Origin: a virus
DNA: 35,925 nucleotides
Virus record (IMG/VR): IMGVR_UViG_3300035670_000710
Span: 1 to 35,925 of that record
Reading direction: 5' to 3' (one strand)
Shown here: positions 16,690 to 35,911 of the stretch, piece after piece
Position numbering within the stretch: the first letter of the stretch is position 1
How the letters are laid out: the number at the start of each line of letters is the position of its first letter
Position numbers and translations under genes: made by a program
The notes under the pieces: generated by a model
The model's database searches: none
Seen by the model: only the letters and a program-made list of their open reading frames with translations
What the model was told of the DNA's origin: nothing

Positions 16690-16898
16690 CGGTCGCCGCC
16701 TCGCTTCCAGTAGTCCCTCTCCAGCACTTCAACGCGCGGCGCCAAGGCGCGGACATCGGCGTCGATCTCGGCAACCTTGCTGTCGAGCTTGCTAATAAAC
16801 CACACAAAGGCGAAGACTTGCATCACGCACGTTGCGCCAATGCTAAATGAGGCTTTGATGAGCCATGCCTTGACTTGTTCTCTTTCGCTGTCGCTCAT
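16686..16898 (-). CDS. Small membrane-anchored coiled-coil protein
   Basis: A 70-residue protein. A hydrophobic helix (ASFSIGATCVMQVFAFVWFI, about 13-32) is followed by a coiled coil (LDSKVAEIDADVRALAPRVE) and a polar tail. Size and layout fit XhlA-like or inner-membrane spanin-like proteins (membrane helix plus coiled coil), so a late lysis role is possible even though it lies among the fibre genes. The start at 16898 gives an ATGA overlap with the upstream stop; an earlier start at 16949 would sit in that gene. Confidence 0.6.
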   Translation of the reverse strand: MSDSEREQVKAWLIKASFSIGATCVMQVFAFVWFISKLDSKVAEIDADVRALAPRVEVLERDYWKRGGDR

Positions 16899-17728
16899 TG
16901 GTAATACGGCACGCGCACGGAATTGGTGCCAACGTAAAACTGAATCCACCCGGCCACGTTGGTGGTGTTGGCCGGGGCGCTGGCGTTGGTGTTAAAGCCA
17001 ACCGGGCGGTGCATGAGCGTGGCGCCCGTGTTGGTGTCGATCAGCGTTGCAACCTTGTTTGTCGGACTGATTGAGTAGATGTCCGCCTCGATGCCGTTGG
17101 TGTTGGTGGCCGATCGCGACGACGGCCCCACCATCGCGAGAGCATTGTAGCCAAACACTGAAAACACAGCCACGCCGGTGCCGTTGGTGTTTGTGGAGCG
17201 GAATCCAAACTGCGCCGATTTGTTGGTGGCCTCGGCCACGCCTACGCGGAACAGCGTTTCGTTGCTGATCGTCGTGTTGTTTGAGGCAATTAGGTTGGCG
17301 AGGCCGAGAAACGGCTCGTTGTTGGTGCGGTAGATGAATAGGATGCCGTTGTTGGTGGCCGTTTGGTTGCTGATGACGATGTTGCCTCCTGAAGTGATGT
17401 TGCGAAAGGCTACGTTGTCGGTGGAGCCGAGGCCGAGGTTGGTCCGGGCGATAGCCTCATCGCCTGAGATTTCAAACTCGAAAACGTTAATTCCTTCGCT
17501 TCGGTCCCCAAACCAAATCGGCGTTTGAAATTCAGACGTATTGGTAAAAAATATAGCGGCGCCATTTGCAAGAGCCGTGGCGTTTGTGAAATTAAGCGTG
17601 TTAGTCCCCGTATATACAACTTTTCCGTTTGTTGCATTATAGCCAAGCGACTTTATGGTTTGCGCGTAGCTGGTAGCGGCGCAAATCGCGGCAATAGTGA
17701 ATGTTGCAAAAAAGTGTTTCATGTTCAT
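16895..17728 (-). CDS. Fibre-like protein with a Sec signal peptide
   Basis: A 277-residue protein. MNMKHFFATFTIAAICAATS then YAQ is a textbook Sec signal peptide (basic start, hydrophobic core, AQ-type cleavage site near residue 23). The mature part is rich in Asn, Thr and Gly, with fibre-like pieces such as NVAFRNITSGGNIVISNQTA and GILFIYRTNNEPFLGLAN. A signal peptide is unexpected on a virion protein, since assembly occurs in the cytoplasm. Either the protein is exported from the infected or lysogenic cell, or the N-terminus came from a host gene. The start at 17728 gives an ATGA overlap with the upstream stop; an ATG at 17722 is also possible. Its base composition is more A+T-rich than its neighbours. 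Confidence 0.7.
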   Translation of the reverse strand: MNMKHFFATFTIAAICAATSYAQTIKSLGYNATNGKVVYTGTNTLNFTNATALANGAAIFFTNTSEFQTPIWFGDRSEGINVFEFEISGDEAIARTNLGLGSTDNVAFRNITSGGNIVISNQTATNNGILFIYRTNNEPFLGLANLIASNNTTISNETLFRVGVAEATNKSAQFGFRSTNTNGTGVAVFSVFGYNALAMVGPSSRSATNTNGIEADIYSISPTNKVATLIDTNTGATLMHRPVGFNTNASAPANTTNVAGWIQFYVGTNSVRVPYYQ

Positions 17729-18258
17729 TGCTTGGTCGCAGTCAAAACGCCGTCGTTGTCGATAGACACAGACCAGATGGAGTTGTCGGCAGATTGCAAA
17801 AGGAAAGACCCGGCGGCAGTGCTGGTTGGGACGCCTTCGCCGCCACGAATTACATCGTTGTAAATGGTGGCCGCGGTCGGAAGCGTTGTCGTGGTTGTCC
17901 CGCCAACCGACCAAGTGATTTCAATTTTGGCCGTGATGCTGTCGGTGGATGCGTCCGGATTAAACTCCGCGTCCATGTTGGACGTGTTAAGGTTGAGGTC
18001 GAAGGTATATACCGTTGCTGTCCCCGTGCCGGTCTTTGTCCAGGCCGTGTCTGAAGCAAGAAAATTGCCCGTGTAAGTTTTTTTGATCCCGACTTGGCCG
18101 GTGGCTCCCGCGTCCAATTCCACCACCGCACCGCCTCGCACAAACTGCACCTCGACCGGCACGGTGTCGCGGCGGGTAAAGTAAAGCGTGTTGACCCGCT
18201 GCGTCAGGACGGGGGAAACGACAAATTCGCTACTGTCGAGGTTGATGTAGACGCGCAT
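17725..18258 (-). CDS. BppU-like tail/fibre-base protein
   Basis: A 177-residue beta-rich protein. LYFTRRDTVPVEVQFVRGGA, ELDAGATGQVGIKKTY and DSITAKIEITWSVGG form a fibre-anchoring beta-sandwich like that of the 121-residue protein at 16324-16689; the two may be related. It ends in a Ser/Thr-containing strand region (SFLLQSADNSIWSVSIDNDG). Translation of the signal-peptide protein is coupled to it by ATGA. A TTGACA element with a 20-base spacer (18259-18284) precedes its start. Confidence 0.6.
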   Translation of the reverse strand: MRVYINLDSSEFVVSPVLTQRVNTLYFTRRDTVPVEVQFVRGGAVVELDAGATGQVGIKKTYTGNFLASDTAWTKTGTGTATVYTFDLNLNTSNMDAEFNPDASTDSITAKIEITWSVGGTTTTTLPTAATIYNDVIRGGEGVPTSTAAGSFLLQSADNSIWSVSIDNDGVLTATKQ

Positions 18259-18288: not shown

Positions 18289-18726
18289 TTAGCGAGACTC
18301 AACAGCCCAACAAAAAGGGAACGCCAACGGCCCAACTCGCTCCTCGTCTGGGTTGGCCGCATCGTATTCGCGGGACGGCAGGTTCAAGATTGCCGCCTCG
18401 CGGTGCCCGTGGCACGGGGTGAAGCCGTGGAAGAAGCCTGCCGGGATGGTGAGCAGTTGCGGCGTGTCGGCGGAAAGGATCACCGTCTCCCCGCGCTTGG
18501 CCTTCGCGTCCCAAATGCCGACTTTGGCCGCGCCCGATACGCAAAACCACCGATCCACTTGTAGGCGGTGCCGGTGCCAGGCTTTGACCACGCCCGCCGC
18601 GCAGGTGGTGATATAGCACTGGCCAAAACCGTGCGCGTCATCCGAAGCCCGGAAGATTTCGGTAAGGCGTCCGCGCTCGTCAAGGTGAGCAGCAAGCGGG
18701 CGCAGGGTGGCTAACATGGCATCCAA
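18289..18726 (-). CDS. RmlC-like cupin (dTDP-sugar 3,5-epimerase family)
   Basis: A 145-residue protein. AWHRHRLQVDRWFCVSGAAK (49-68), IPAGFFHGF (94-102) and SREYDAANPDEERVG (118-132) follow the pattern of dTDP-4-dehydrorhamnose 3,5-epimerases and related sugar isomerases (H-x-H, IPxGxxHGF, Y-D-..-DE-R). At 145 residues it is shorter than typical RmlC (about 180), and the C-terminal part is reduced. It may epimerise or isomerise a nucleotide sugar used by the neighbouring glycosyltransferase, but a non-enzymatic cupin is possible. ATG at 18726 overlaps the glycosyltransferase stop; ATG 18717 is an alternative. Confidence 0.75.
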   Translation of the reverse strand: MDAMLATLRPLAAHLDERGRLTEIFRASDDAHGFGQCYITTCAAGVVKAWHRHRLQVDRWFCVSGAAKVGIWDAKAKRGETVILSADTPQLLTIPAGFFHGFTPCHGHREAAILNLPSREYDAANPDEERVGPLAFPFCWAVESR

Positions 18727-19742
18727 GCCTGTTGGCGCACGCGGAGGTGGCCGCGATATTCGCCTTCGGTTTCGTGATAAGCGCGGTGATGGATAATGTC
18801 GGGCGCATCGGCTGGTGCGTCTTTGCCCTTGCGCTTAACATGATCCGCCGCCGTGTGCGCGATTGCCGCGATTCGCAGCCCCGCTGGGTGCCAGCGATGC
18901 CAGCACAGGAACAGGTCTTGCGTCCCGCGCCCGTCGTAGCCTTCAAAAGTGGCCAGCGCGAGCGCCTTGGCCGATAGCAGCGTGCAGCCAAGGCCGCACC
19001 AATCCGACGGCACGATGGCCCCGCGCCCGATGCCGGGATAGGCGAAATCCAGCCAACCCCGCCTGCGCCACCCGTGCTTGGCCGTGACTTCAAACACGTT
19101 GCCGTCCGGCGGGCATCGCTTAATCCGCTCGTGCAGGCGCCCCATCCGTTTGCCCTCCTTCTCGCTGTTCGGCTCGGCTTTCAGCCGCTCGCGGCAGGCT
19201 TCCAGCGCGCGGACCAGCCGAGGCGGCAGCTTGCGCTCTTTTTCGGTGAAGTCCTCGGCAATCGGATGCTGCGGCGTCCCAAAGCCGCCAAGGAAAAGCC
19301 CGTTCGGGTAAGTCACTGCGGCGATGTCGTAATAGCTCGACCCGTCGGCCTGCGGCATGGTTAGCGCCCACTCGGCCACCCGGAGGGCGTCGGCGGGGAC
19401 AAGGTTGTCGGCCTCCACCGACCACAACATCGAGGCGCGGATCTTGCGAGCAGCGGCAAACGCGGCGCCTTGCAGGGCGGCAATCCGCATTTGCGCCTCG
19501 ACTTTGTAGTCCTTGCCCTCGACCCCGCCGTCATCCAGGGGCAGAGTGATAGCTTGGATGCGCCAACCTTCGGGAAGCTCGTGGCGCGCTGCTTCAATAG
19601 CCTGCCTGGCTTCGTCTGACTGGTCGGTTGCCAGAATGAAATGCGCCTCGGCGTGGTGCCCGGCGGCGGCGGCGATGCGCCGAAGAAACTGCGGCCAGCA
19701 ATAAAAATAGCTTTTGGTCGCGTATGTCGCAATGGCCAACAC
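18711..19742 (-). CDS. Glycosyltransferase-like protein (GT-A fold)
   Basis: A 343-residue protein. After an N-terminal strand-turn (AIATYATKSYFYCWPQFLRR) the segment RASMLWSVEADNLVPADAL holds a DxD-like EADN, as in GT-A enzymes that bind a nucleotide sugar with a metal ion. The later PSDWCGLGCTLLSAKALALA and FEGYDGRGTQDLFLCWHRW fit the acceptor half of such enzymes. GTG at 19742 is taken as start; a TTGACA element lies 16 bases upstream. It stands between the Thr/Ser-rich appendage gene and the RmlC-like gene, so virion-protein glycosylation is a reasonable inference. Confidence 0.7.
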   Translation of the reverse strand: MLAIATYATKSYFYCWPQFLRRIAAAAGHHAEAHFILATDQSDEARQAIEAARHELPEGWRIQAITLPLDDGGVEGKDYKVEAQMRIAALQGAAFAAARKIRASMLWSVEADNLVPADALRVAEWALTMPQADGSSYYDIAAVTYPNGLFLGGFGTPQHPIAEDFTEKERKLPPRLVRALEACRERLKAEPNSEKEGKRMGRLHERIKRCPPDGNVFEVTAKHGWRRRGWLDFAYPGIGRGAIVPSDWCGLGCTLLSAKALALATFEGYDGRGTQDLFLCWHRWHPAGLRIAAIAHTAADHVKRKGKDAPADAPDIIHHRAYHETEGEYRGHLRVRQQAWMPC

Positions 19743-19764
19743 TCGGAGGCGTGGCGGGTGTCAA
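19743..19764 (-). promoter_or_regulatory. TTGACA start element before glycosyltransferase
   Basis: TTGACA, 16-base G+C-rich spacer (CCCGCCACGCCTCCGA), then GTG at 19742. The element lies after the upstream stop (19770-19772). This copy lacks the AGGGC core seen at others. Confidence 0.35.
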
Positions 19765-19769
19765 GCGAC

Positions 19770-21392
19770 TTACGGAACGGCAATGCTATTGCGCGGGGCG
19801 GCCCACACAATTTGCGTGCTGGTGCCGGTATCGTATCCAAAAAATGTGACCGGAGAATATCTGTCGATTGTTGAGCCCCCAGAAAAAGACCGAATTGCGA
19901 AAGTTTCTTTTGTCGTTTGGCCGTTCTTTTTGCGATACACTCCACTTGCAAAACTGTTGTAGGCCGTGTTGAGGCTGTTAATAGAAAGGCACCCTTGGGC
20001 AGTGGCAAAATCTATGAAATCAGTGGTTGCTTGGCCCTGAGGAACAAACTCGGCAGTCTGTGTTTGGGATGTTGTTTCGGTTCCTGATAAGCCGGTGCTT
20101 GTTAAAGTTGCAGAATAATTGCTAAAACTGATTGTGCCAAGTAGCTGATAGTCGCTGTTGTGGGCCCTAAACGTCCCTGGCATAAGGCTAAACACTTTTT
20201 GCGACACGGAGACAAACCAAGCGCCATCGTTATCGCCAAACACGTTTTGCATGATGCCCTGCTTAAAAAAAGACGCGGCAACCCCCGCGCTGTTTTTGAT
20301 TCCTGTGAAGCCAATTATGGTTCGCTCGTTTGTTTGGGCCGTAGTTGTTTGGTTGTAAAATTTAGTCCTTGGCGCGTAAGTTGTTTTTTCCCATTTTTCC
20401 GTAATTTCAAACTCCCCAGGGTTGGCTCCCGCCGCCGTTATTGCTCTTGATGTGGTGTAAGATGTATCTTCGATAGCAGCCGTAGTCGTTGAATAGACCG
20501 CGTAAGTTGAGTCAAACACCTGTCCCAAACTTGTTATTTCCACAAAAGAAACGTATTGAGTTGTTGTCGTTTCCGTTGCTGAATAATTATACGCAAGAAA
20601 AGACCCTTCTACGTCCGTGATGGTGATTGTTTCGCCGTATGTGGTTGGCGAATAATAAAAATACTCTTCGGTTTCTAAAGGAAGCGATGGGGCGAATGGA
20701 TTGATCACAGGGCGCGTGCTGGACAACAACTCTCCTATTGAAAATTGCCGCACAACTGTCGTGCGCGTGCTTTCCTCCGTATTAGTAAAAGCGCGCGAAG
20801 GAACCGCGCTTTGTGCAATAATACTTGCCGCAACAGTTTCAGATTGCGGGTAAACAGTTGTGGCGGTTGCCGTGCTTGCGGTTTCTATGGCTGCCCCGGA
20901 ATAAATATTTTCACCAATATCTGTGGCACTGGCGACCAAAAGAACTTCATCGCTTTGCGCCATGTAAATTGTTCCGTATAGTTCCCCGACATATTGGCTA
21001 TCCGTTGTAGTCGTAGTAAAAGAAGAATGGTTGGAGGTAGTTGTCGAAAATGTTGGCAGTGTCTGAGAAAGGGTTGAGACACTACTGACGGTGATAGTCG
21101 CGCTGTTGCTTGCTGTTGTTCGTGTGGTGTAAACTTGTCGAACAGCCGTTGTTACAGTCGTGGACGAAATCTGTCTTGAAACATTGGTTGTTGCCAGCGT
21201 TGTAAGCGGCTCAGAGCCACGAAGTGTCTCGTATGTCGTGCTGGAAAAGTCCCCTGCTATGGATTGAGATGTAAAAAAGAAATTTTCTTCATAGGATTCG
21301 CTAGCTGAGAAAGGATCGCCGTCCAGGTTCGTAGCACTGGCGCTAGATACAATCTTGGTTTGTGGATCGACAGTAAACAGCCAGGAAATCAT
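19770..21392 (-). CDS. Thr/Ser-rich tail appendage protein
   Basis: A 540-residue protein dominated by Thr, Ser, Ala and Tyr (runs such as SFTTTTTDSQYVGELYG and SATETTTTQYVSF). There is no recognised catalytic domain; strand-like segments alternate with Thr/Ser tracts, as in tail fibres or adhesin-like shafts. The C-terminus (STIDRYSPVTFFGYDTGTST) is probably a folded domain. Base composition is clearly more A+T-rich than the head genes. The next gene encodes a glycosyltransferase, so the many Thr/Ser residues are candidate O-glycosylation sites; this is inference. ATGA overlap with the upstream gene (21389-21392). Confidence 0.65.
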   Translation of the reverse strand: MISWLFTVDPQTKIVSSASATNLDGDPFSASESYEENFFFTSQSIAGDFSSTTYETLRGSEPLTTLATTNVSRQISSTTVTTAVRQVYTTRTTASNSATITVSSVSTLSQTLPTFSTTTSNHSSFTTTTTDSQYVGELYGTIYMAQSDEVLLVASATDIGENIYSGAAIETASTATATTVYPQSETVAASIIAQSAVPSRAFTNTEESTRTTVVRQFSIGELLSSTRPVINPFAPSLPLETEEYFYYSPTTYGETITITDVEGSFLAYNYSATETTTTQYVSFVEITSLGQVFDSTYAVYSTTTAAIEDTSYTTSRAITAAGANPGEFEITEKWEKTTYAPRTKFYNQTTTAQTNERTIIGFTGIKNSAGVAASFFKQGIMQNVFGDNDGAWFVSVSQKVFSLMPGTFRAHNSDYQLLGTISFSNYSATLTSTGLSGTETTSQTQTAEFVPQGQATTDFIDFATAQGCLSINSLNTAYNSFASGVYRKKNGQTTKETFAIRSFSGGSTIDRYSPVTFFGYDTGTSTQIVWAAPRNSIAVP

Positions 21393-22006
21393 TGCAACAG
21401 CGTGTAGTAGATGTTGTAAGGCGATTCTCCAGGCGCTGCTGCCGCATCTTTTTCCACAATGAGCGATTGCACAACTGGCGCAGCTACGGTGCCGTCGGTT
21501 TCAATGCGGTAATTGGTCCCGTTTTCAAACATTCCGAAGACAAAAGGAATGGCCGCAGGCAAGGCGTAAAGCTCTGGGGCTGGCGGGGCAAGGTGCTCGG
21601 TCTCCATGGAAAGCACCACGTCGGTAATGCCCACGCCGTCTGTGTTAATCGTGGCCGTGCCGTAATAAAGCTGATCGTTGTCTAGTTCAAATTCCTCGTC
21701 CCAATTCGTCGGCAAAAAGTTTCCGATGGTGCCAGGGCGCACTCTGACGGTGTAGCCGCTGTTGTCGGACTCCACGGTGTATATGTCCCAAGGATATATT
21801 TGGGAAACTGTGCCACCTTTGGCTGATGGCAAGGCGGCAGCAAGGCCGATGTAAGTTCCGGTCCCATCTTGTCGCACTGTGATTCCGCGCTCGCCCTTGG
21901 GCTTGTTGCGCCTAATCTCTTGCAGAATCGTATTGAGACGATCGGCGCTTAGTTCGCGCAAAAGCGGGCGGCCCGACAGAAAGCGAATGGATTCAAACTG
22001 TCCCAT
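21389..22006 (-). CDS. Probable tail-tip structural protein
   Basis: A 205-residue protein. The N-terminus (MGQFESIRFLSGRPLLRELS and ADRLNTILQEIRRNK) is helical and the rest is beta-rich (YTVRVRPGTIGNF, LYYGTATINTDGVGITDVVL). An N-terminal helix followed by beta domains, between a tape-measure-side gene and a fibre gene, suits a tail-tip or baseplate protein. No named family is recognised. It shares the MxQFE start with the next gene upstream (MAQFETT), a possible common assembly motif. Confidence 0.55.
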   Translation of the reverse strand: MGQFESIRFLSGRPLLRELSADRLNTILQEIRRNKPKGERGITVRQDGTGTYIGLAAALPSAKGGTVSQIYPWDIYTVESDNSGYTVRVRPGTIGNFLPTNWDEEFELDNDQLYYGTATINTDGVGITDVVLSMETEHLAPPAPELYALPAAIPFVFGMFENGTNYRIETDGTVAAPVVQSLIVEKDAAAAPGESPYNIYYTLLQ

Positions 22007-27219: not shown

Positions 27220-27786
27220 TCAAAGCCGCGCCGCGCCGGGGTCGTAGTGCTTGGTGACGTAGCTGTAAAAGTAAATCGGATTGTCGCCGCTCCATTCCTC
27301 GGTCTGCAAATGCGGCAGCAGGCCGAGCGCATAGCTGTAATCCTCGCCCCACATCATGTCGGGGAAACGGCTTTTCAGCGCCATATCGCGCCGTAGCGGG
27401 CACAGGTGGTGCGGGGTGCGTTCTTGGCCTTGCCAGTGGTGGTTCTCGCGGAAGCGCAGGCTGTGGCGGAAGATGGGTGACGGGCGGTAGTCGTGGCCGT
27501 CCATTGTGACGTGCATCGTAATTCCGACCACATCGGGCTTGCTTTTGAGGCAGGGCAGGATGCGGGCGACGTAGTCGGGCGCAATCATGTCATCGTCATC
27601 AACAAAGGCTACATAATCGCCCGTGGCCTGCTTGATCATGCGCTGGCGCTTGACCCCGACCGTGCCGGGGCCGTTATCAATGGTAATGCGGACGCTGCGC
27701 TTGCACTGCGGCTTTAGCACGGCCAGCAGCTTTTCCAGCATGGCCGCGCGCGACGGGATGGTGGGCACTAAAATTTCCAGCTTCAT
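27220..27786 (-). CDS. GT2-family glycosyltransferase
   Basis: A 188-residue protein. MKLEILVPTIPSRAAMLEKL then ATGDYVAFVDDDDMIAPDYV form the nucleotide-sugar-binding half of a GT2 (GT-A) enzyme with the metal-binding DDDD/DxD motif, and MMWGEDYSYALGLLPHL (about 147-163) is the acceptor-side acidic motif (E-D). It is a compact member; most GT2 enzymes exceed 220 residues. The start at 27786 forms an ATGA overlap with the larger glycosyltransferase upstream, so the two work as a pair in the head-gene region. Confidence 0.8.
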   Translation of the reverse strand: MKLEILVPTIPSRAAMLEKLLAVLKPQCKRSVRITIDNGPGTVGVKRQRMIKQATGDYVAFVDDDDMIAPDYVARILPCLKSKPDVVGITMHVTMDGHDYRPSPIFRHSLRFRENHHWQGQERTPHHLCPLRRDMALKSRFPDMMWGEDYSYALGLLPHLQTEEWSGDNPIYFYSYVTKHYDPGAARL

Positions 27787-29504
27787 GGCACCCATCCCTG
27801 CGCCACGGCGTCGGGGTTTCGGCGCTTGAAGACCGCCTTTCCGCGCTCGTTGGCTTCTGGGTTCTGCTGTCGGCGGTAGCACTCATCCGAGGCCGCGCCC
27901 GTGAACAGCGGGTGGTCGTGGTAGAACTTGATGTGCCGCCCGTCCTGCACCACGCCATCGCGGTAGGCGCGGAAGGAAAACTCGGTGTCCGACCAATAGC
28001 CGTCGTATTCCGGGCACAGCAACCACTCGCGGCCAAGCCACCACCGCCAGTTAAAAGTCATGATGGTCATGAGCTTTTGCCCTGGCTGGTCGAAACCATC
28101 GGAAACGTGCAGCACAGTCGGCGCGTCCATGTGTGGCTTCATGGCTTGGATGATCTGCTCGTCCCAGCCGTGGGGCGGGTAAACGTCCGACTGCGCCATG
28201 ATGAAGATGCGCGCGCCCGATGCGGTGGCCGCGCGGGAGGCGGCGTTGTAGTTGGCGACCGCGCTGCTGTGACCTTCGGGCACTGCTTGGGCGAGGCCGT
28301 GCGGGTAGTGCTTGAGCTCGTCGACAATCTCGGTATCGCTTTCGCAGATGCCAAAATAGTAAGCCACCCTTTCGGGGTTGGCCGCGCGTTCCAGCCACAT
28401 ATTGCGGACCTCAATGTCTTTGGCTCCCCTGCCCGCCGGATGGCCCACGGCAATGCGCGGCTTGAGGCGTTTGAGCCATTCTTTGCGTAGGCGCTCGGCT
28501 TCTTTGGTGTTGCCCGCTTTGGCAAGGGCCAGCGTCTTTAAGTCGTGCGCCCGCCAGCCGTAGAGGGACGCATCGTGCGTCCAGCTTGGTTCGTCGGGCA
28601 TGGGTTGGGCCTCCATTGCATTGGCGTAGGCCAGCGCCTTGGTGGCCTTGCCGCGTGCGAGGTGCATCTTGGCGAGTTCGGCGTAGCCTTCGCGGCGCCA
28701 CGGCATGAGGCGCACGGCTTCCAGCAGCGGGCGTTCGGCCTCGTCCACATCGGCAATCCAGCGGCCAATGGTTTGGTAGGCCACAAACTTTTCTTCGTCG
28801 CCTAGATCGTCGCGGCCCGTGGCGACAATCGCGGCTTGCATGGCGACAGGGATGTCCTGCTGCACTTCGCACTCGCGGAACAGAAACCACCACTCGCGGC
28901 CCGTGCGCTCTTCGGGCGGCACCGCTTCAAGGATGCGGCGGTTGCGCGTCACGCTGCTGCGCTTGTTGTTGTGCGGCAGATGGATCACCTGCAACTCAGG
29001 CGACCATGTGAGCTTGCTGCCGGGCTTGTGCTCGATGTCCTCGTGGACGGCGTTGATCCATTTGTCGTAGGCGCTGGCCCTGAGCAGTCGCACGCGGCGG
29101 GCGTAACTGCCGCTGGCGCTGGTCACATAAGGTGCGTAGATCACATCGGCTTCGGGGTCTTTGCCCTCGCGCAACATCCGCAGGACCGCCGCGCCCGTGT
29201 CGCCCAGCAGATCATCGCAGTCGGCCCACATGAGGTAGTCGGTGCCTTTGGGGGCCAAGGCGAAGCTCTGGTTGCGGGCGGCGGCGAAATTATCAACGTG
29301 CTCCCATTGGTGGTCGGTCGCGTTGAGATATTCGCCCGTGAGGCATCCGCGCTCTTTGGCAATGTCGAGCGTGGCATCGGGCTGCGCCGTGCCGATGGCG
29401 CGGACTACGGAAACGGAATCAACGTGCGGCTGGAACGAGTCCAGAAAGCGGCAAATCATGTCCGCTTCGTTGCCTACGATGATACCGAGATGAACTTTGG
29501 CCAC
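27783..29504 (-). CDS. Two-domain glycosyltransferase with TPR-like middle
   Basis: A 573-residue protein. The N-terminal GT2 domain starts VAKVHLGIIVGNEADMICRF and has ADCDD (94-98) as DxD motif, resembling SunS-like GT2 enzymes. A central part (about 255-375) of helical repeats (YAELAKMHLARGKATKALAY) looks TPR-like. The C-terminal third has a second GT-A-like unit (FIMAQSDVYPPHGWDEQII, YWSDTEFSFRAYRDG). GTG at 29504 is chosen because the longer frame from 29582 would translate through a strong hairpin. It lies between the capsid and joining-protein genes, so virion decoration is likely. Confidence 0.75.
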   Translation of the reverse strand: MAKVHLGIIVGNEADMICRFLDSFQPHVDSVSVVRAIGTAQPDATLDIAKERGCLTGEYLNATDHQWEHVDNFAAARNQSFALAPKGTDYLMWADCDDLLGDTGAAVLRMLREGKDPEADVIYAPYVTSASGSYARRVRLLRASAYDKWINAVHEDIEHKPGSKLTWSPELQVIHLPHNNKRSSVTRNRRILEAVPPEERTGREWWFLFRECEVQQDIPVAMQAAIVATGRDDLGDEEKFVAYQTIGRWIADVDEAERPLLEAVRLMPWRREGYAELAKMHLARGKATKALAYANAMEAQPMPDEPSWTHDASLYGWRAHDLKTLALAKAGNTKEAERLRKEWLKRLKPRIAVGHPAGRGAKDIEVRNMWLERAANPERVAYYFGICESDTEIVDELKHYPHGLAQAVPEGHSSAVANYNAASRAATASGARIFIMAQSDVYPPHGWDEQIIQAMKPHMDAPTVLHVSDGFDQPGQKLMTIMTFNWRWWLGREWLLCPEYDGYWSDTEFSFRAYRDGVVQDGRHIKFYHDHPLFTGAASDECYRRQQNPEANERGKAVFKRRNPDAVAQGWVP

Positions 29505-29612
29505 TGGAAATAGAAAGGGCCACGGCGAGTGGAACCGTGACCCTTCGGGTCGAAACCCAGATGGAAACTCCCGGCGGGCCACTCAATCCGCCGGGAGATG
29601 AACACACGAGCC
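29505..29612 (-). terminator. Hairpin cluster after capsid gene
   Basis: The 108-base gap holds a perfect ten-base-pair hairpin, CTCCCGGCGG-N10-CCGCCGGGAG (29568-29597), just after the capsid stop codon, a smaller GACCC-TTC-GGGTC, and a CACGG...CCGTG repeat. No T run follows. Such a strong stem suits partial termination or 3'-end protection that keeps capsid mRNA abundant while lowering glycosyltransferase expression. Confidence 0.6.
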
Positions 29613-30461
29613 TTAGATGATGAGCGCGCAGGTGCCGCTGGTCAGACCGGCTGCCGATCCGAACATAACTTCACAGGAGGCGGTCACCGTGCGGGTGGAC
29701 TGGCTGGCTGTGATGTTATACATGATCGTCATGCCCAACTGGTCGAGCGTCACGGAATCCGAGACGTAGAGCAGGTTGGCGACCGCCGGGTCGATCGGAG
29801 GCATGGCCGAGGCCACCGCCACCGCTTCGGGCGAGCAGGCGAAACCGTCGAGGCCAGTGACCGCGCCAGAGAAGCTGTTGGCGTAGTAGATGCCCTGGTC
29901 GAATCCGTAGGCTCCGTTCTGGAGCGGCAGGAAGTCGGCGTTGGTGGGGATCAACTTGCTGTAGATCTCCGGGGTCACAACCAAGCCCTTGCGGTCGGCC
30001 TTGCTGATGGCACTCCAGAGAGTCGCCAAGTGGCCGCTGCCGGGCGTGATGGTGGTCGTGGTGACCGTGGCCGCGCCGAAATTGACCGTGGTGATCGGAG
30101 TGATCGCCACCGAGAAAATCTTGTCGGCGAGCGCGTTGAGATTGATGCGGACCAAGTTTTCCAGACGGTGACCGTTGGCGAGCTCGGCTTGGGTGATGCC
30201 GAAGAACTGCGCGTAGTGGTCGAGCGTCACGGTGGCCTTGCCAACGGTGACGTTGGAAGCCGGCGTGAAGTCGGTCGGGTTGGTCGAGGTGGCCGAGGTG
30301 TCGGTCACGAGGGGCACCTGGATGGTGTCCTTGGGCTTGCGGACTTCATTGCTGAAATCCGTGCTGAAGATGCGAAGCGGGGCGAGCCGGTTGGCCAGCA
30401 CAGTTTGCACCTGTTCCGAGATCGTCGCTACAACGAGCGCTGAGTCGAAGACGTTTGCCAT
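29613..30461 (-). CDS. Major capsid protein
   Basis: A 282-residue protein. MANVFDSALVVATISEQVQT, PKDTIQVPLVTDTSATSTNP, FGITQAELANGHRLENLVRI and the end QSTRTVTASCEVMFGSAAG fit a HK97-fold coat protein of the P22-coat-like group. Position right after the protease/scaffold gene supports this. It has its own unstructured A/C-rich leader (30462-30513) and a strong hairpin after its stop, both expected for the most abundant virion protein. Confidence 0.85.
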   Translation of the reverse strand: MANVFDSALVVATISEQVQTVLANRLAPLRIFSTDFSNEVRKPKDTIQVPLVTDTSATSTNPTDFTPASNVTVGKATVTLDHYAQFFGITQAELANGHRLENLVRINLNALADKIFSVAITPITTVNFGAATVTTTTITPGSGHLATLWSAISKADRKGLVVTPEIYSKLIPTNADFLPLQNGAYGFDQGIYYANSFSGAVTGLDGFACSPEAVAVASAMPPIDPAVANLLYVSDSVTLDQLGMTIMYNITASQSTRTVTASCEVMFGSAAGLTSGTCALII

Positions 30462-31377: not shown

Positions 31378-31398
31378 ATAGGCGGCGGCTCATGTCAA
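31378..31398 (-). promoter_or_regulatory. TTGACA start element before protease gene
   Basis: TTGACA, 15-base spacer TGAGCCGCCGCCTAT, then ATG at 31377. Here the TGA within TTGACA is the portal gene's stop codon (31395-31397). Confidence 0.35.
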
Positions 31399-32924
31399 GC
31401 GTCCACCTTGGCGGGCGTCTTCTTGCGCTTGTAAATCCGTTTCTTTTTGCGGGCGCGGGCGGAAAGTTCGGTCGGCGTTTCTTCCGACTGCATTTGCTCC
31501 GGGGTGGAGGCGGGCGGAGTTGAACCGCCGTCCCCTGTGGGCACAGGGTCGATAACCGTCGCCCCCTCGGTGCGCTCGACGCCGACCACCACGCCAAGCT
31601 CGGCGGCAAACTGACGTTCGGCGGCGATCTCTTGCATGGCCGTTTTCCAATCCAAGCCCTGTTCGCCAAAGAAGTCGGCAAGGGTCATCAGTCCCGCCTT
31701 CACATCGTCGCGGCGGGCTTGGGCTTCGCGGCCCACGTCCACGGTGATCGAGCGCGGCGTCTGCCAATGCACGCGCCGCCAGTTCGGGTTCATCGGCAAC
31801 TGCCCGGAGCGGACGGCGTTGGCGATGGCGTAGTTCCACAACTTGCCAAGGAAGGAGGAGATAAGAACGTCCTGCCGCGCGGCAAAGGCGCGGGCGGCTT
31901 TTTGGATGATGAAACGCTGGGCCACGCCACCGACTGCGGAGGTGTCCCAGATAAATTCGTAAGGCAGGCCAAGACCCAGCGCGGCGGCGCGGATATACTG
32001 CTCCAGATGCGCGTCCAACTTTTCGTTGGGGCGGTTCATCATAAAACTCTCGATGCGCTCGGTGGCCTTGAGGCGCGGGATCATGCCGCCGCTGAAGACA
32101 GTTTCGCGGGTCAGGGTTTCGCCGGCATTCTTGGACAGATCGCCAAAGAAGCCCTCGGCCCCCACGCCGCCTTGCGCGTTCTGCACCACAAGCCCGATGC
32201 TGCTGCCGATCTTGGCGGCCTGCATCTCAAAGCGGAGCAACTCGTCGCGGTCCAAAAGGTTATTCAGCGCCACGGCCACGGCGGGATACCCGCGCACTTG
32301 GTCGGGGCGTTCGGGCTCGTAGACGTGCAGCATCAGATCCGCTTGGATGCGGCGGCTGGTGCGGTTGCTGAAAGTGTCGCCCTCGACCACATGATAAGCC
32401 AGCGGACGCGCAAAGCGGTCTAGGCTTACGCCATCCACAATCTCGTCGGCCTTGTCGGGCGGGTTGGCGACCCTGTGGGACTCGACCACTTGCACGGCGG
32501 GCGTACCGTCGCGCTTGTTGGTGAGGATGCAAAAGATTTCGCCGTCACGGTCTACGGCCTCGCTGACCAGCACTTGCAGGCGGCGCATATCGTGCCGCCC
32601 GCTGATTTCGGGCGACTTGCTCCACTCGTCCCACCACGCCTCGGCAGCGTCATCCCATGCGGGGTCGCCGCTGTTGGCCTGCGGGGCAATGCCGGCGCCG
32701 ACCGAGTAGGTGGCCTTGTCGCGGATGGCCGAGCGAACGATGGCGTTGTTGTAGAAGAGTTTGCGCGACAGACCGAGCAGACGGGTGCGGTCGCCGTTGG
32801 AAATATCGACCTTGCTGTCCTGCGCTTGGGTCCAGACGTAGGACCGCTCCTCGGGGCGCCAGTTGGACGCCTCGACCATGCGCTGAAAACCGAATTGCTT
32901 GGCAATTTTATCGACCAGTTTCAT
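31395..32924 (-). CDS. Portal protein, lambda gpB type
   Basis: A 509-residue portal of the lambda family. LGLSRKLFYNNAIVRSAIRD, ATYSVGAGIAPQANSGDPAW and DEWSKSPEISGRHDMRRLQV are diagnostic N-terminal blocks; VSEAVDRDGEIFCIL, LMLHVYEPERPDQVRGYPAV and AALGLGLPYEFIWDTSAVGG are conserved later ones. The C-terminus is Thr/Pro- and Lys/Arg-rich (RARKKKRIYKRKKTPAKV). The start at 32924 is chosen because it lies two bases from the connector stop (32926) and opens with MKLVDKIAKQFGF; an ATG at 32981 lies inside that gene. Confidence 0.93.
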   Translation of the reverse strand: MKLVDKIAKQFGFQRMVEASNWRPEERSYVWTQAQDSKVDISNGDRTRLLGLSRKLFYNNAIVRSAIRDKATYSVGAGIAPQANSGDPAWDDAAEAWWDEWSKSPEISGRHDMRRLQVLVSEAVDRDGEIFCILTNKRDGTPAVQVVESHRVANPPDKADEIVDGVSLDRFARPLAYHVVEGDTFSNRTSRRIQADLMLHVYEPERPDQVRGYPAVAVALNNLLDRDELLRFEMQAAKIGSSIGLVVQNAQGGVGAEGFFGDLSKNAGETLTRETVFSGGMIPRLKATERIESFMMNRPNEKLDAHLEQYIRAAALGLGLPYEFIWDTSAVGGVAQRFIIQKAARAFAARQDVLISSFLGKLWNYAIANAVRSGQLPMNPNWRRVHWQTPRSITVDVGREAQARRDDVKAGLMTLADFFGEQGLDWKTAMQEIAAERQFAAELGVVVGVERTEGATVIDPVPTGDGGSTPPASTPEQMQSEETPTELSARARKKKRIYKRKKTPAKVDA

Positions 32925-32925
32925 T

Positions 32926-33186
32926 TCAATAAACCCCGTATTGCGCGCGGCTGGCGCGGTCGTTGCCGATGTCTCCGGCATTGATCGCCAAGGCCGTCTC
33001 GATGAGGCCGAGCATTTCCCAAGCGTCGTAGCTTTTCTGAAGCGTCACCGACCGACCGCCGACGCTGCTTGACAGGACGAATGCTTGTGAGGCGCCACCC
33101 GCGAGGATTTGCGCTTTGCAGGAGGCTTTTAGCTGGGAGAGTTCGGCGCTGGTAAAAACAGAAGCCAGCAGGGACGCATCGGTCAT
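32926..33186 (-). CDS. gpW-like head-tail connector
   Basis: An 86-residue protein. LSQLKASCKAQILAGGASQA then RSVTLQKSYDAWEMLGLIET matches the small alpha/beta gpW family (two helices with a beta hairpin) that sits beneath the portal in lambda-type heads. Location directly before the portal gene is as in lambda, where W lies between A and B. Its start carries the clearest TTGACA element. Confidence 0.75.
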   Translation of the reverse strand: MTDASLLASVFTSAELSQLKASCKAQILAGGASQAFVLSSSVGGRSVTLQKSYDAWEMLGLIETALAINAGDIGNDRASRAQYGVY

Positions 33187-33206: not shown

Positions 33207-33568
33207 GGGGCGCGTTGTTTTACAAAGCGGACGCCGCTTTTTTTGAATTCGGGCGATTCTACTGTCAGCAAATCGCCATTGGGCTCGACGGTAAATTTTC
33301 CAATCACGTCCTCGGCAAAGTCTTTATCCCCATCTTTTCGGACTTTTACGGTCACGATGCCTGCGGCGAAATCCCAAGAACCCTCATAATCTGTCGTGGA
33401 CACCTCAAAAACGTCCAAAACCATTTTGGCCTTGGCCGCTCCCGACGATTGTAGGTCATAGCTGTAAAGCATCCCATCGGTGGAATAAGTATAGACACCG
33501 CTTAAATCTGGTCGGCGGTCGCACGAAGCAATCGCAAACAAAATGAGGATCAGGCTAATTGCTTTCAT
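33203..33568 (-). CDS. Lipoprotein moron
   Basis: A 121-residue predicted lipoprotein: MKAISLILILFAIASCDRRP has a hydrophobic signal and lipobox A-I-A-S-C with Cys16. Asp at +2 would keep it in the inner membrane by the E. coli Lol rule. The mature part is a small beta-rich domain (DLSGVYTYSTDGMLYSYDLQ; EGSWDFAAGIVTVKVRKDGD). It sits between the terminase and connector genes, where structural phages have no lipoprotein, and its DNA is more A+T-rich than both neighbours. Phage-encoded lipoproteins commonly block superinfection (for example T5 Llp, in the outer membrane), which is the best guess. It overlaps the end of the TerL gene by 14 bases. Confidence 0.7.
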   Translation of the reverse strand: MKAISLILILFAIASCDRRPDLSGVYTYSTDGMLYSYDLQSSGAAKAKMVLDVFEVSTTDYEGSWDFAAGIVTVKVRKDGDKDFAEDVIGKFTVEPNGDLLTVESPEFKKSGVRFVKQRAP

Positions 33569-35225
33569 TGGTTGCCCGATATTGAGCCATGATTGAATCA
33601 ATAAGAACAAGGCACATCTTCTCGCAGTCGGCCAAGTGGTTCGGCCCAAGGCGCTGCCACTTGGCCTCGCCGTCTTTTTCGATCAGCGCCTCGCCCTGCA
33701 ACTGCGAAACATAATCCTTAGCAATGTCGCGCGGCAAATGCCAACGCCCCCGCCCGTCGCGCAAGATGTCGTGGTAAAGCCGCGCCTGCCAGAAGTGCGC
33801 GTCGAATTGCACCGCCCAAAGCACCGCCCCGCCCGACACGATTTGCTGGAACTTGTAGGGCTCGCGTAGTCCCTGGCTGACGGTGCGACCCTTGGCCGCG
33901 ACAAATAGCCCGCCCGACTTGGCCACGAAGTCGTAAACGCCCGCCGGGGTCTTGGCCGCGTAGCCCGCATCCACAATACCCCGATAGCATTTGTAGTGCT
34001 TGAACTTGTCCATGACGCCGTCCCATCCGACCATCGCCCCGTAATCGAGGAGGTAACTGCTCCCGTCTTCGTGCAGTTCGCGCACAATCCACCACATCTC
34101 GGTCTGCTGAACGTCGATGGACATTAGCCGCCCGATCACTTTGCCTTCGGGCGCGGCGCCCATCGTGTAACGCGGCGAGGCGTCCACGCGGTCGCGGATC
34201 ATTTGTGTCGTGATAAGCGCCCCGTCAGGTTTCCACGGCAAGGCGAGCTCGCGGTTGTTGAAGTCTTGCAGCCCTCCCGGCGCATCGCGGTCTTGTAAGA
34301 ACTTGACCGCCAAGTCGGCCCACTTGCGCCACGGCGCGTAGAGTGAGGAAAGGTGGTAGCTGCGCCGCCCCGGCTCGGCGGCAAGCTCTGTGGCTCGCCA
34401 CTCGCCACGCTCCAGCATGGCGGGCTTGTCGGCCTCGGTGTGCCCGTGACCGCAAGCAGGACAGACGCACCGCGCCGTCTCGGCCACCTTGGTCATGTCC
34501 CAGCCATCATCCTGTTTGGCCGTCTCGTCCCAGCGAATGTGTTCCCATTGCAGCGCCCACGCTTCACCGCAGCCAAGGCAGGGCACGAAGTATTTGCGCT
34601 GGTCGCCCTTCAGCCATTCAGTCCAGATTGCCGCGTCCTCGTAAGTCGGGGTCGAGGTGGTGACGATAATGTGTTGCGGATAGGTCGCCACGCGGGCCTC
34701 GGCCAACTGCAACGGCGCGGACTCTTTGCCGCCTTTGGCAGGGAACTTGTCGAGCTCGTCCATGCACAGGGCGGCAATGGAGCGCGAGGAAAGCGAGGCC
34801 GGCGAGTTGCTGCCCGTAAACCACACGCTCATGCGGTCAAAGTGCTGTTCCAGTAGGCGATACTTGTCCGGGTCGGCTTGCTTGTGACGGGCCAACGTCG
34901 GGTTTTGGTCTATCAGCGGCATCCACCGCGTCTCGGAAAATGACCGCGCCAAGTGCGTGGAGGGCATGACCCAAAGGCACGGCGCCGGGGCCACGTCGAG
35001 TTTGTAAGCCATGCCCACGATGATGGCCGTGGTTTTGCTGGTCTGCGCGCCCCACACCAACGCCAACCGCCGCACCCGCTCGTCGGCAAAGCATTCCAAG
35101 ACCTCCCGCACATACGGCGTGCGCTGGGTGAGGTAGCTGCCGGGCTTGTTGGTGATGCGCTCCGAAAGCTTCAGATTTGCCTCGGCCCACGCCACCACGC
35201 CGGGCTTTGGCGGCGTGAGTGTCAC
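33555..35225 (-). CDS. Terminase large subunit, lambda gpA type
   Basis: A 556-residue packaging motor. From the proposed start: ANLKLSERITNKPGSYLTQR and TPYVREVLECFADERVRRLA lead to the ATPase site GAQTSKTT (59-66, Walker A variant) and CMDELDKFP (Walker B, about 154-162). A Cys4 zinc ribbon (CLGCGEAW ... CVCPACGHGH) and the nuclease segment RLMSIDVQQTEMWW, VDAGYAAKTP follow, as in GpA-family terminases. GTG at 35225 is chosen because it lies 26 bases after the TerS stop and begins VTLTPPKPGVVAWAE; the frame is open upstream to 35798 but is Gly-rich shadow of TerS. Confidence 0.93.
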   Translation of the reverse strand: MTLTPPKPGVVAWAEANLKLSERITNKPGSYLTQRTPYVREVLECFADERVRRLALVWGAQTSKTTAIIVGMAYKLDVAPAPCLWVMPSTHLARSFSETRWMPLIDQNPTLARHKQADPDKYRLLEQHFDRMSVWFTGSNSPASLSSRSIAALCMDELDKFPAKGGKESAPLQLAEARVATYPQHIIVTTSTPTYEDAAIWTEWLKGDQRKYFVPCLGCGEAWALQWEHIRWDETAKQDDGWDMTKVAETARCVCPACGHGHTEADKPAMLERGEWRATELAAEPGRRSYHLSSLYAPWRKWADLAVKFLQDRDAPGGLQDFNNRELALPWKPDGALITTQMIRDRVDASPRYTMGAAPEGKVIGRLMSIDVQQTEMWWIVRELHEDGSSYLLDYGAMVGWDGVMDKFKHYKCYRGIVDAGYAAKTPAGVYDFVAKSGGLFVAAKGRTVSQGLREPYKFQQIVSGGAVLWAVQFDAHFWQARLYHDILRDGRGRWHLPRDIAKDYVSQLQGEALIEKDGEAKWQRLGPNHLADCEKMCLVLIDSIMAQYRATNESN

Positions 35226-35251
35226 CTCATGCCCTGCGGCCCAGGCTTCGG

Positions 35252-35791
35252 CTAACCCTTCGCGGTCGCCTCCGACAAGGACGGCGGCAGGGTCGCTAAG
35301 TGCTTCCGCAGCATCGAGGTCGCCTGCTCGCCCCACGGGAAGGTCGAGAAATCCTGCACCAGCGCCGAGATCAGCCCACGGATCGCCGTCACCGTCTCCT
35401 GCTTGTTCAAGGTGGCCTTGGTCATCGCCAGAAATTGCCCCAACTCCTGCTCGGCCTGCGCCACGGCCTTTCGGCTGTCGCGCCACGCGCCGGCCAGTTC
35501 GGCTACGGTTCGGCTGTTTACCTCGTCCGCGCCGCTTGCCGCCTTCCATAGTTGATAGTGACGGATCTCCCCCTCCGCCGCTCGGTCCAGCCGCGCCTTC
35601 GGCCCCAGCGCCGGGTTGCTGCTGGCCGTGGGCGCCGAGACGTTGCCCGACTTCCGCCGCCGGATGTTTGCCGCCACCCATGCCTGCGCCGCCTCCACCG
35701 AGTCGGTCGGCATCCCTTGGGCCTTCCAGAGCGACACGCTGGTCTGGTTGGAGCCCAGCGCCTTGGCGAGTTGTATCTGGGTCAGGGCCAT
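35252..35791 (-). CDS. Terminase small subunit, Nu1-like
   Basis: A 179-residue protein. The N-terminal winged-helix-like unit LTQIQLAKALGSNQTSVSLW then KAQGMPTDSVEAAQAWVAAN is the DNA-binding module of Nu1-type terminases (helix-turn-helix, then a short wing and W-x-A-x-N). The rest is helical (ELAGAWRDSRKAVAQAEQEL), suiting oligomerisation and contact with TerL. It is the first late gene and directly faces the repeat-containing region at the window end, as Nu1 faces cosB. Confidence 0.85.
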   Translation of the reverse strand: MALTQIQLAKALGSNQTSVSLWKAQGMPTDSVEAAQAWVAANIRRRKSGNVSAPTASSNPALGPKARLDRAAEGEIRHYQLWKAASGADEVNSRTVAELAGAWRDSRKAVAQAEQELGQFLAMTKATLNKQETVTAIRGLISALVQDFSTFPWGEQATSMLRKHLATLPPSLSEATAKG

Positions 35792-35911
35792 AAGGCATGG
35801 TGATAGGGCTTTCGCGGTAGTCTCATTATCAAATTGTCTTATTGAGACTGGAAATCTGCAAGGGCTGTATTACTTGATGAAATCGCAATAAATTTTGCCC
35901 GATTTCTTGCC
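35792..35911. promoter_or_regulatory. Non-coding, cos-proximal region, right part
   Basis: Upstream of the small terminase start. It contains CTTATTGAGACTG (35838-35850), identical to 77-89, and an inverted AGTCTCA-N17-TGAGACT (35819-35849). On the minus strand GATAAT (a -10-like hexamer) lies near 35827-35832, but no good -35 sits upstream. Repeats just upstream of nu1 are the terminase-binding R sites in lambda, so cosB function is the favoured inference. Confidence 0.5.

Follow-up and report, generated by a model that had tools for sequence, protein, structure and literature searches.

Within the late gene block of a phage genome available as IMG/VR virus record IMGVR_UViG_3300035670_000710 (35,925 bases; hereafter, the window), three genes on the minus strand encode, in order of transcription, a hypervariable protein rich in serine and threonine (Ser/Thr), a glycosyltransferase and a small cupin. 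Gene pairing across relatives, enzyme fold and protein composition together suggest that the enzyme probably O-glycosylates the adjacent mucin-like protein of the tail region, to which it appears to be dedicated. A sequence-only reading of the window had pointed out this arrangement, and all three open reading frames (ORFs) are present as described; its proposal that the enzyme serves the Ser/Thr-rich protein is supported by the comparisons below, in which the two genes occur together and the enzyme is gone where the protein is gone.

The enzyme (18711..19742, minus strand; 343 amino acids from a GTG start) begins 27 nt past the stop codon of the Ser/Thr-rich gene (19770..21392, minus strand; 540 amino acids). 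Its sequence has no match in Pfam, PHROG or NCBIfam, nor among 50,697 INPHARED phage records, and a profile search of PDB sequences found no glycosyltransferase, placing it apparently outside the classified families. An AlphaFold model built from 28 relatives (predicted local distance difference test, pLDDT, 79; predicted template modeling score, pTM, 0.75) gave 146 Foldseek matches in the PDB at E≤0.001; among the matches listed, almost all are GT-A glycosyltransferases. The first is COLGALT1 (E 1.3e-9, TM-score 0.50, 12% identity), which acts on protein; weaker matches include GnT-I, TarS and, further down the list, LH3. An acidic-x-Asp (DxD-like) motif, E-A-D at residues 110–112 (19407..19415, minus strand), has E110 and D112 invariant in the 28 relatives and is retained in nine distant enzyme sequences as well. 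Predicted fold and motif, which do not by themselves name sugar or acceptor, thus mark the protein as a GT-A glycosyltransferase, in agreement with the sequence-only reading. The ratio of nonsynonymous to synonymous substitutions (dN/dS ∼0.09, at dS ∼1.2) points to strong purifying selection.

A different prospect is that the substrate is phage DNA carrying modified bases, as it is for T4 beta-glucosyltransferase and the TET-associated glycosyltransferases. An enzyme of the latter kind is one weak hit in the structural comparison with viral proteins, and the window encodes a C5 cytosine methylase; but none of the genes scanned proved to encode a hydroxymethylase or a TET/JBP protein, and the enzyme gene lies in the tail operon, where it tracks the Ser/Thr-rich protein. 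We regard action on DNA as extremely improbable.

The presumed acceptor contains 18.1% Thr and 13.0% Ser. This combined content of 31.1% is not a product of chance, since it exceeds the 95th percentile (24.1%; median 13%) of 240 background ORFs of at least 400 amino acids from the same loci, and since the two alternative frames of the gene would encode only 12.5% and 8.3% Ser/Thr. The densest part, residues 61–130 (21003..21212, minus strand), is predicted to be unstructured, and Ser/Thr reaches 52% over residues 61–120; judging from composition and a low-confidence model, this would be the likeliest glycan-bearing stretch. No domain match identifies the product of 19770-21392 as a fibre, and its designation as an appendage, like its presumed presence in the virion, is deduced from the position of the gene among the late structural (tail) genes. 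Third-position guanine and cytosine content is lower in the Ser/Thr-rich gene than in the glycosyltransferase gene in 59 of 60 loci (medians 53.5% vs 73%).

Relatives of the enzyme were found at 65 IMG/VR loci (41–92% identity), and at every one of the 61 with sufficient upstream DNA the ORF abutting the enzyme upstream consists of 24–39% Ser/Thr. Spacing is operon-like: 34 loci have a gap of 18 nt, and at others the two genes overlap by 1–4 nt. A scan with a divergent alignment extended the set to 217 enzyme relatives, the best 80 of which supplied 58 loci on new contigs. In this distant set the abutting ORF contains at least 22% Ser/Thr at 39 of 58 loci, and, with the remainder read by hand, a Ser/Thr-rich ORF is adjacent or one gene away at 55 of 58. 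Three of the hand-read loci have the Ser/Thr-rich ORF one gene from the enzyme (L154-L156), three have an over-called enzyme start that hides the neighbour (L193, L200, L223), and in one (L194) the pair is separated by a short gene that begins like a sulfotransferase and lacks a Pfam match. At nine more, the Ser/Thr-rich ORF lies directly beside the enzyme but convergent, on the opposite strand (L177, L195, L202, L203, L215, L222, L224, and L185 and L213, both cut by the contig end), so adjacency survives rearrangement. Most of these convergent loci have the cupin followed by the glycosyltransferase on one strand and the Ser/Thr-rich gene on the other.

Loci that lack the enzyme served as controls. 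The module occupies an exchangeable slot bordered, by comparison of loci, by a conserved 205-amino-acid gene upstream (21389..22006, minus strand) and a conserved 177-amino-acid gene downstream (17725..18258, minus strand); alignments of the former proved too divergent for scanning, and the latter was therefore taken as the anchor for gathering enzyme-less relatives. In these, the slot holds other proteins of low or moderate Ser/Thr content. Two have flanking genes close to those of the window: L090, with an unrelated 296-amino-acid protein (15% Ser/Thr), is nested beside an enzyme-bearing relative in the anchor-gene tree (support 100/98), and L102 carries an unrelated protein of ∼218 amino acids (21% Ser/Thr). 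Enzyme and Ser/Thr-rich protein are thus replaced jointly. The enzyme was not found elsewhere in the 19 enzyme-less records, some of which are fragments, in a search that detected it in 6/6 positive controls.

These controls bear on the view that the Thr/Ser content is structural, supplying beta strands or linkers, that the target of the enzyme is a different tail protein or its role a different one, and that the two genes are co-inherited as part of a late-gene cassette. Contents of 20–27% Ser/Thr are reached by other tail-region proteins of these phages, the C-terminal part of the Ser/Thr-rich protein is modeled mainly as strands, and codons for Thr, Ser and Asn are favoured in a gene as poor in GC as this one, all of which would fit such an account. 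However, adjacency outlasts inversion of one partner and holds for enzymes down to ∼41% identity, the proteins replacing the pair in enzyme-less slots are not Ser/Thr-rich, and the other moderately Ser/Thr-rich tail proteins are not tied to the enzyme: L090 still has the downstream gene with an apparent signal peptide (described below). Mere cassette inheritance therefore seems to us unlikely.

Composition and sequence of the Ser/Thr-rich protein follow different courses. Among locus pairs whose enzymes are at least 85% identical, identity is 88% (median) for the enzyme, 82% for the cupin, 67% for the downstream 177-amino-acid gene and 46–47% for two upstream genes; the Ser/Thr-rich proteins of such pairs are 26% identical, vs 23% when one partner is shuffled. 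In composition-corrected BLASTP, the protein from the window recognises none of 60 counterparts, and a single-sequence pattern search for relatives retrieved none from IMG/VR or INPHARED, so that counterparts were reached solely via the conserved neighbouring enzyme. Ser/Thr content across loci nevertheless stays at 31.1±3.3%: composition is conserved, and sequence not. The proteins still form one family, because their alignment retains an N-terminal MISW (MI.W), a glutamate box at E149, a glycine (G453) and a C-terminal W..xRNs..P. A diversity-generating retroelement was considered as the source of hypervariation and rejected, with no reverse transcriptase match among the window proteins scanned, a set that leaves aside some small ORFs.

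Hypervariability would equally be expected of a receptor-binding fibre that varies with host range, and the pair might then be a joint host-recognition locus, in which the enzyme alters a host surface glycan and so changes the receptor or excludes superinfection. A tyrosine integrase match in the window makes it probable that the phage is temperate, and prophage seroconversion enzymes are well known; both points count in favour of host glycan modification. A receptor-modifying enzyme, however, would not need a neighbour that holds 31% Ser/Thr while losing its sequence, nor would it vanish exactly where the slot contains a protein that is not Ser/Thr-rich, and its gene would hardly be expected where it lies, amid the block of tail genes and directly against that neighbour or overlapping it. 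We consider this alternative improbable, and favour glycosylation of the neighbouring protein.

Several observations weigh against the latter. The case for glycosylation is indirect. At a TM-score of 0.50 and 12% identity, any generic GT-A enzyme would match structures such as COLGALT1. Position-specific base composition alone predicts 25.6% Ser/Thr for 19770-21392, and the structure model of its product is poor (pLDDT 42), too poor for a fold search. At one distant locus (L171), set in a general cluster of glycan genes, the enzyme lacks a Ser/Thr-rich neighbour, and at two others (L181 and L183) the neighbours contain only 19% and 21% Ser/Thr. Finally, the loci share ancestry, and the anchor-gene tree offers two well-supported independent pairs, too few for significance. 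Both are concordant in nearly all pairings; the test scored two rows as enzyme without a Ser/Thr-rich neighbour, at least one of which (L046) is due to a 7.5-kb cut-off, its abutting 858-amino-acid ORF containing 34% Ser/Thr.

Two of these exceptional loci have further features of their own. L171 (746-6463) is part of a 179-kb virus contig, on which the enzyme relative is surrounded by a cytidylyltransferase and further genes that appear to concern glycans. L183 (2-1632) has two very Thr- or Ser-rich ORFs (44% and 51% Ser/Thr) a few genes ahead of the glycosyltransferase, the second with SSSRSQ-type repeats.

In the mechanism we propose, the glycosyltransferase would be a dedicated soluble protein O-glycosyltransferase, co-translated with its Ser/Thr-rich neighbour at a late stage of infection, that places sugars on numerous Thr and Ser residues of this neighbour before or during tail assembly. 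The product would be a mucin-like, glycan-coated virion component whose short conserved scaffold, at the protein ends, serves folding and attachment, and whose body may drift freely as long as it stays Thr/Ser-rich, selection acting on composition and glycan density and not on sequence. Such a coat may protect the virion from binders of host or environmental origin, or serve in adhesion. In this account gene pairing, joint replacement, the fold and motif of the enzyme, its purifying selection and the hypervariability of its partner are observed; acceptor, O-linkage, virion location and role are inferred, as would be the masking or altered receptor binding suggested by the sequence-only reading. 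What the window contains is a phage-encoded glycosyltransferase genetically tied to a presumed virion protein, as expected of a virion-glycosylation system, the virion status of the protein being judged from its place in the tail block. More tentatively, and with appreciable doubt, we suggest a widespread strategy: selection would maintain the glycan-bearing composition of a tail-region protein and not its sequence, and a conserved, dedicated enzyme would coat it, yielding a changeable mucin-like shield or adhesin with a surface that is largely sugar, tuned by exchangeable cupin, sulfotransferase, epimerase or nucleotidyltransferase genes.

The cupin (18289..18717, minus strand; 142 amino acids) overlaps the end of the glycosyltransferase gene. 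Its start is probably the in-frame ATG of codon 4 (18717) and not the listed TTG (18726), because conservation across 35 cupins begins there. The sequence-only reading had called it an RmlC-like nucleotide-sugar cupin. As a CapF/RmlC-type cupin it is confirmed: the protein matches PF14667 above the curated cut-off (E 4e-11; 43.4 bits vs 28.7), its His-x-His motif (H51 and H53) is invariant in the 35 cupins, and its sequence resembles the C-terminal domain of CapF and a dTDP-sugar isomerase. It does not qualify as RmlC itself: it scores 13.4 bits against the NCBIfam RmlC equivalog (cut-off 155.75) and falls far under the NCBIfam cut-offs for RmlC, WbuC and WbcJ. Co-conservation of all three genes, which the same reading had named as a check, holds for enzyme and Ser/Thr-rich protein but not for the cupin: it is present in 34 of 65 close loci, and in many relatives without it the next gene begins ∼31 nt downstream of the enzyme. 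The cupin is therefore an optional accessory, and because of this the idea that the phage builds its own O-glycans is unsupported as worded; the sugar donor may be host-derived. Where present, in about half of close relatives, the cupin, as a putative epimerase, probably changes the sugar.

Other loci have other genes beside the pair, including a DUF3431 protein (L019; four further loci have ORFs like it), a sulfotransferase (L060, with the same gene in L061 and L069) and an NAD-dependent epimerase/dehydratase (L204), while a cytidylyltransferase lies near the enzyme in L171 and, by appearance, in L165. These sulfotransferases, nucleotide-sugar enzymes and DUF3431 proteins would probably change the sugar in their turn; as a set, the accessory genes fit sugar tailoring, and the pair does not depend on any one of them.

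The window encodes two more glycosyltransferases on its head side, behind the capsid match, as had been claimed: one (27220-27882) that matches PF00535 and a larger one (27783-29582; 599-amino-acid ORF) that matches phage glycosyltransferase PHROGs. Joint action of all three enzymes was rejected, and the head-side pair is not part of the tail-side module, because the larger enzyme persists in two close relatives, L090 and L102, that lack the module; it is a separate system. The 599-amino-acid ORF is over-called at its N-terminus, with a likely start at 29504, ahead of which lies a hairpin-rich leader (29504-29612, minus strand) partly conserved in relatives. Phase variation of this enzyme, considered since its first ∼28 residues lie in a different frame in relatives, was rejected because a non-coding, hairpin-containing leader accounts for the first ∼26 codons.

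Elsewhere in the window, domain or family matches identify a GpA-type terminase (33555-35798), a lambda-type portal (31395-32981) and, weakly, a capsid protein (29613-30461), in addition to the integrase, the methylase and an M15 peptidase. Downstream of the module, a fibre-like gene (16895-17722, minus strand) begins with an apparent Sec signal peptide (MKHFFATFTIAAICAATSYAQ), and its relatives in L004, L008 and L090 begin in the same way. Enzyme relatives with a Ser/Thr-rich ORF also occur on contigs of metagenome-assembled genomes (MAGs) labelled Rariglobus, Chthoniobacter and Planctomycetota and in an additional genome from the same phylum as the Rariglobus MAG; the MAG loci with such an ORF are L067, L068, L070 and L134. 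The phage, which infects an uncultured bacterium, probably has a verrucomicrobial host; the MAG contigs are a hint to this effect, with mis-binning possible. On the Planctomycetota contig (L067, 2-4799), two small ORFs with hydrophobic stretches lie between the Ser/Thr-rich ORF and the glycosyltransferase.

If the proposed glycosylation is right, the occurrence of the pair on more than 100 environmental phage contigs would mean that glycosylation of phage tails is common and open to testing, and such gene pairs would yield a rule for predicting glycosylated phage proteins, as well as a source of new protein O-glycosyltransferases with their natural partner substrates. A further question would be how a tail protein coated in sugar functions at the bacterial surface.

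Virion glycosylation as such is already known: in the mycobacteriophages Che8, Corndog and Myrna, phage-encoded enzymes attach sugars to virion proteins, and these sugars interfere with the binding of antibodies (Freeman et al. 2023, as cited in PMC12363180 and PMC11256854). What is new here is a variant of wide occurrence that pairs an unclassified enzyme with a hypervariable protein; a paper describing this pair was not found in the searchable part of the literature. Both systems involve phage-encoded glycosyltransferases that sugar-coat virion proteins, including the tail tube in mycobacteriophages. In mycobacteriophages, however, the acceptors are capsid and tail tube proteins, whereas here the presumed acceptor of the putative glycans is the product of a hypervariable Ser/Thr-rich neighbouring gene; the phages also belong to another group, and the enzyme has no INPHARED match.

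Among bacterial systems, TibC and Aah, acting on the adhesins TibA and AIDA-I, provide a parallel of a dedicated enzyme that hyperglycosylates hydroxyl residues of a surface protein, as in the glycosylation of TibA by TibC (PMC4358343). TibC, however, most resembles GT-B enzymes and binds iron, and Ser, not Thr, was found modified in its substrate (PMC4358343), whereas the phage enzyme is predicted to be GT-A with a DxD-like motif, lacks the GT-B-like core of the bacterial autotransporter heptosyltransferases (BAHT), and has a presumed substrate with more Thr than Ser. COLGALT1 (GLT25D1; PDB 9evj), the closest solved structure, shares the GT-A fold and action on protein hydroxyl groups, but is eukaryotic and transfers galactose onto collagen hydroxylysine; the likeness to the GT25/COLGALT family is one of fold only, the sequence searches above having found no significant similarity to its members. 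The cupin, in turn, shares sequence similarity, fold and, probably, sugar-nucleotide chemistry with the C-terminal cupin of CapF and a dTDP-sugar isomerase (PDB 2zkl, 3ejk), differing from them as a small, stand-alone protein.

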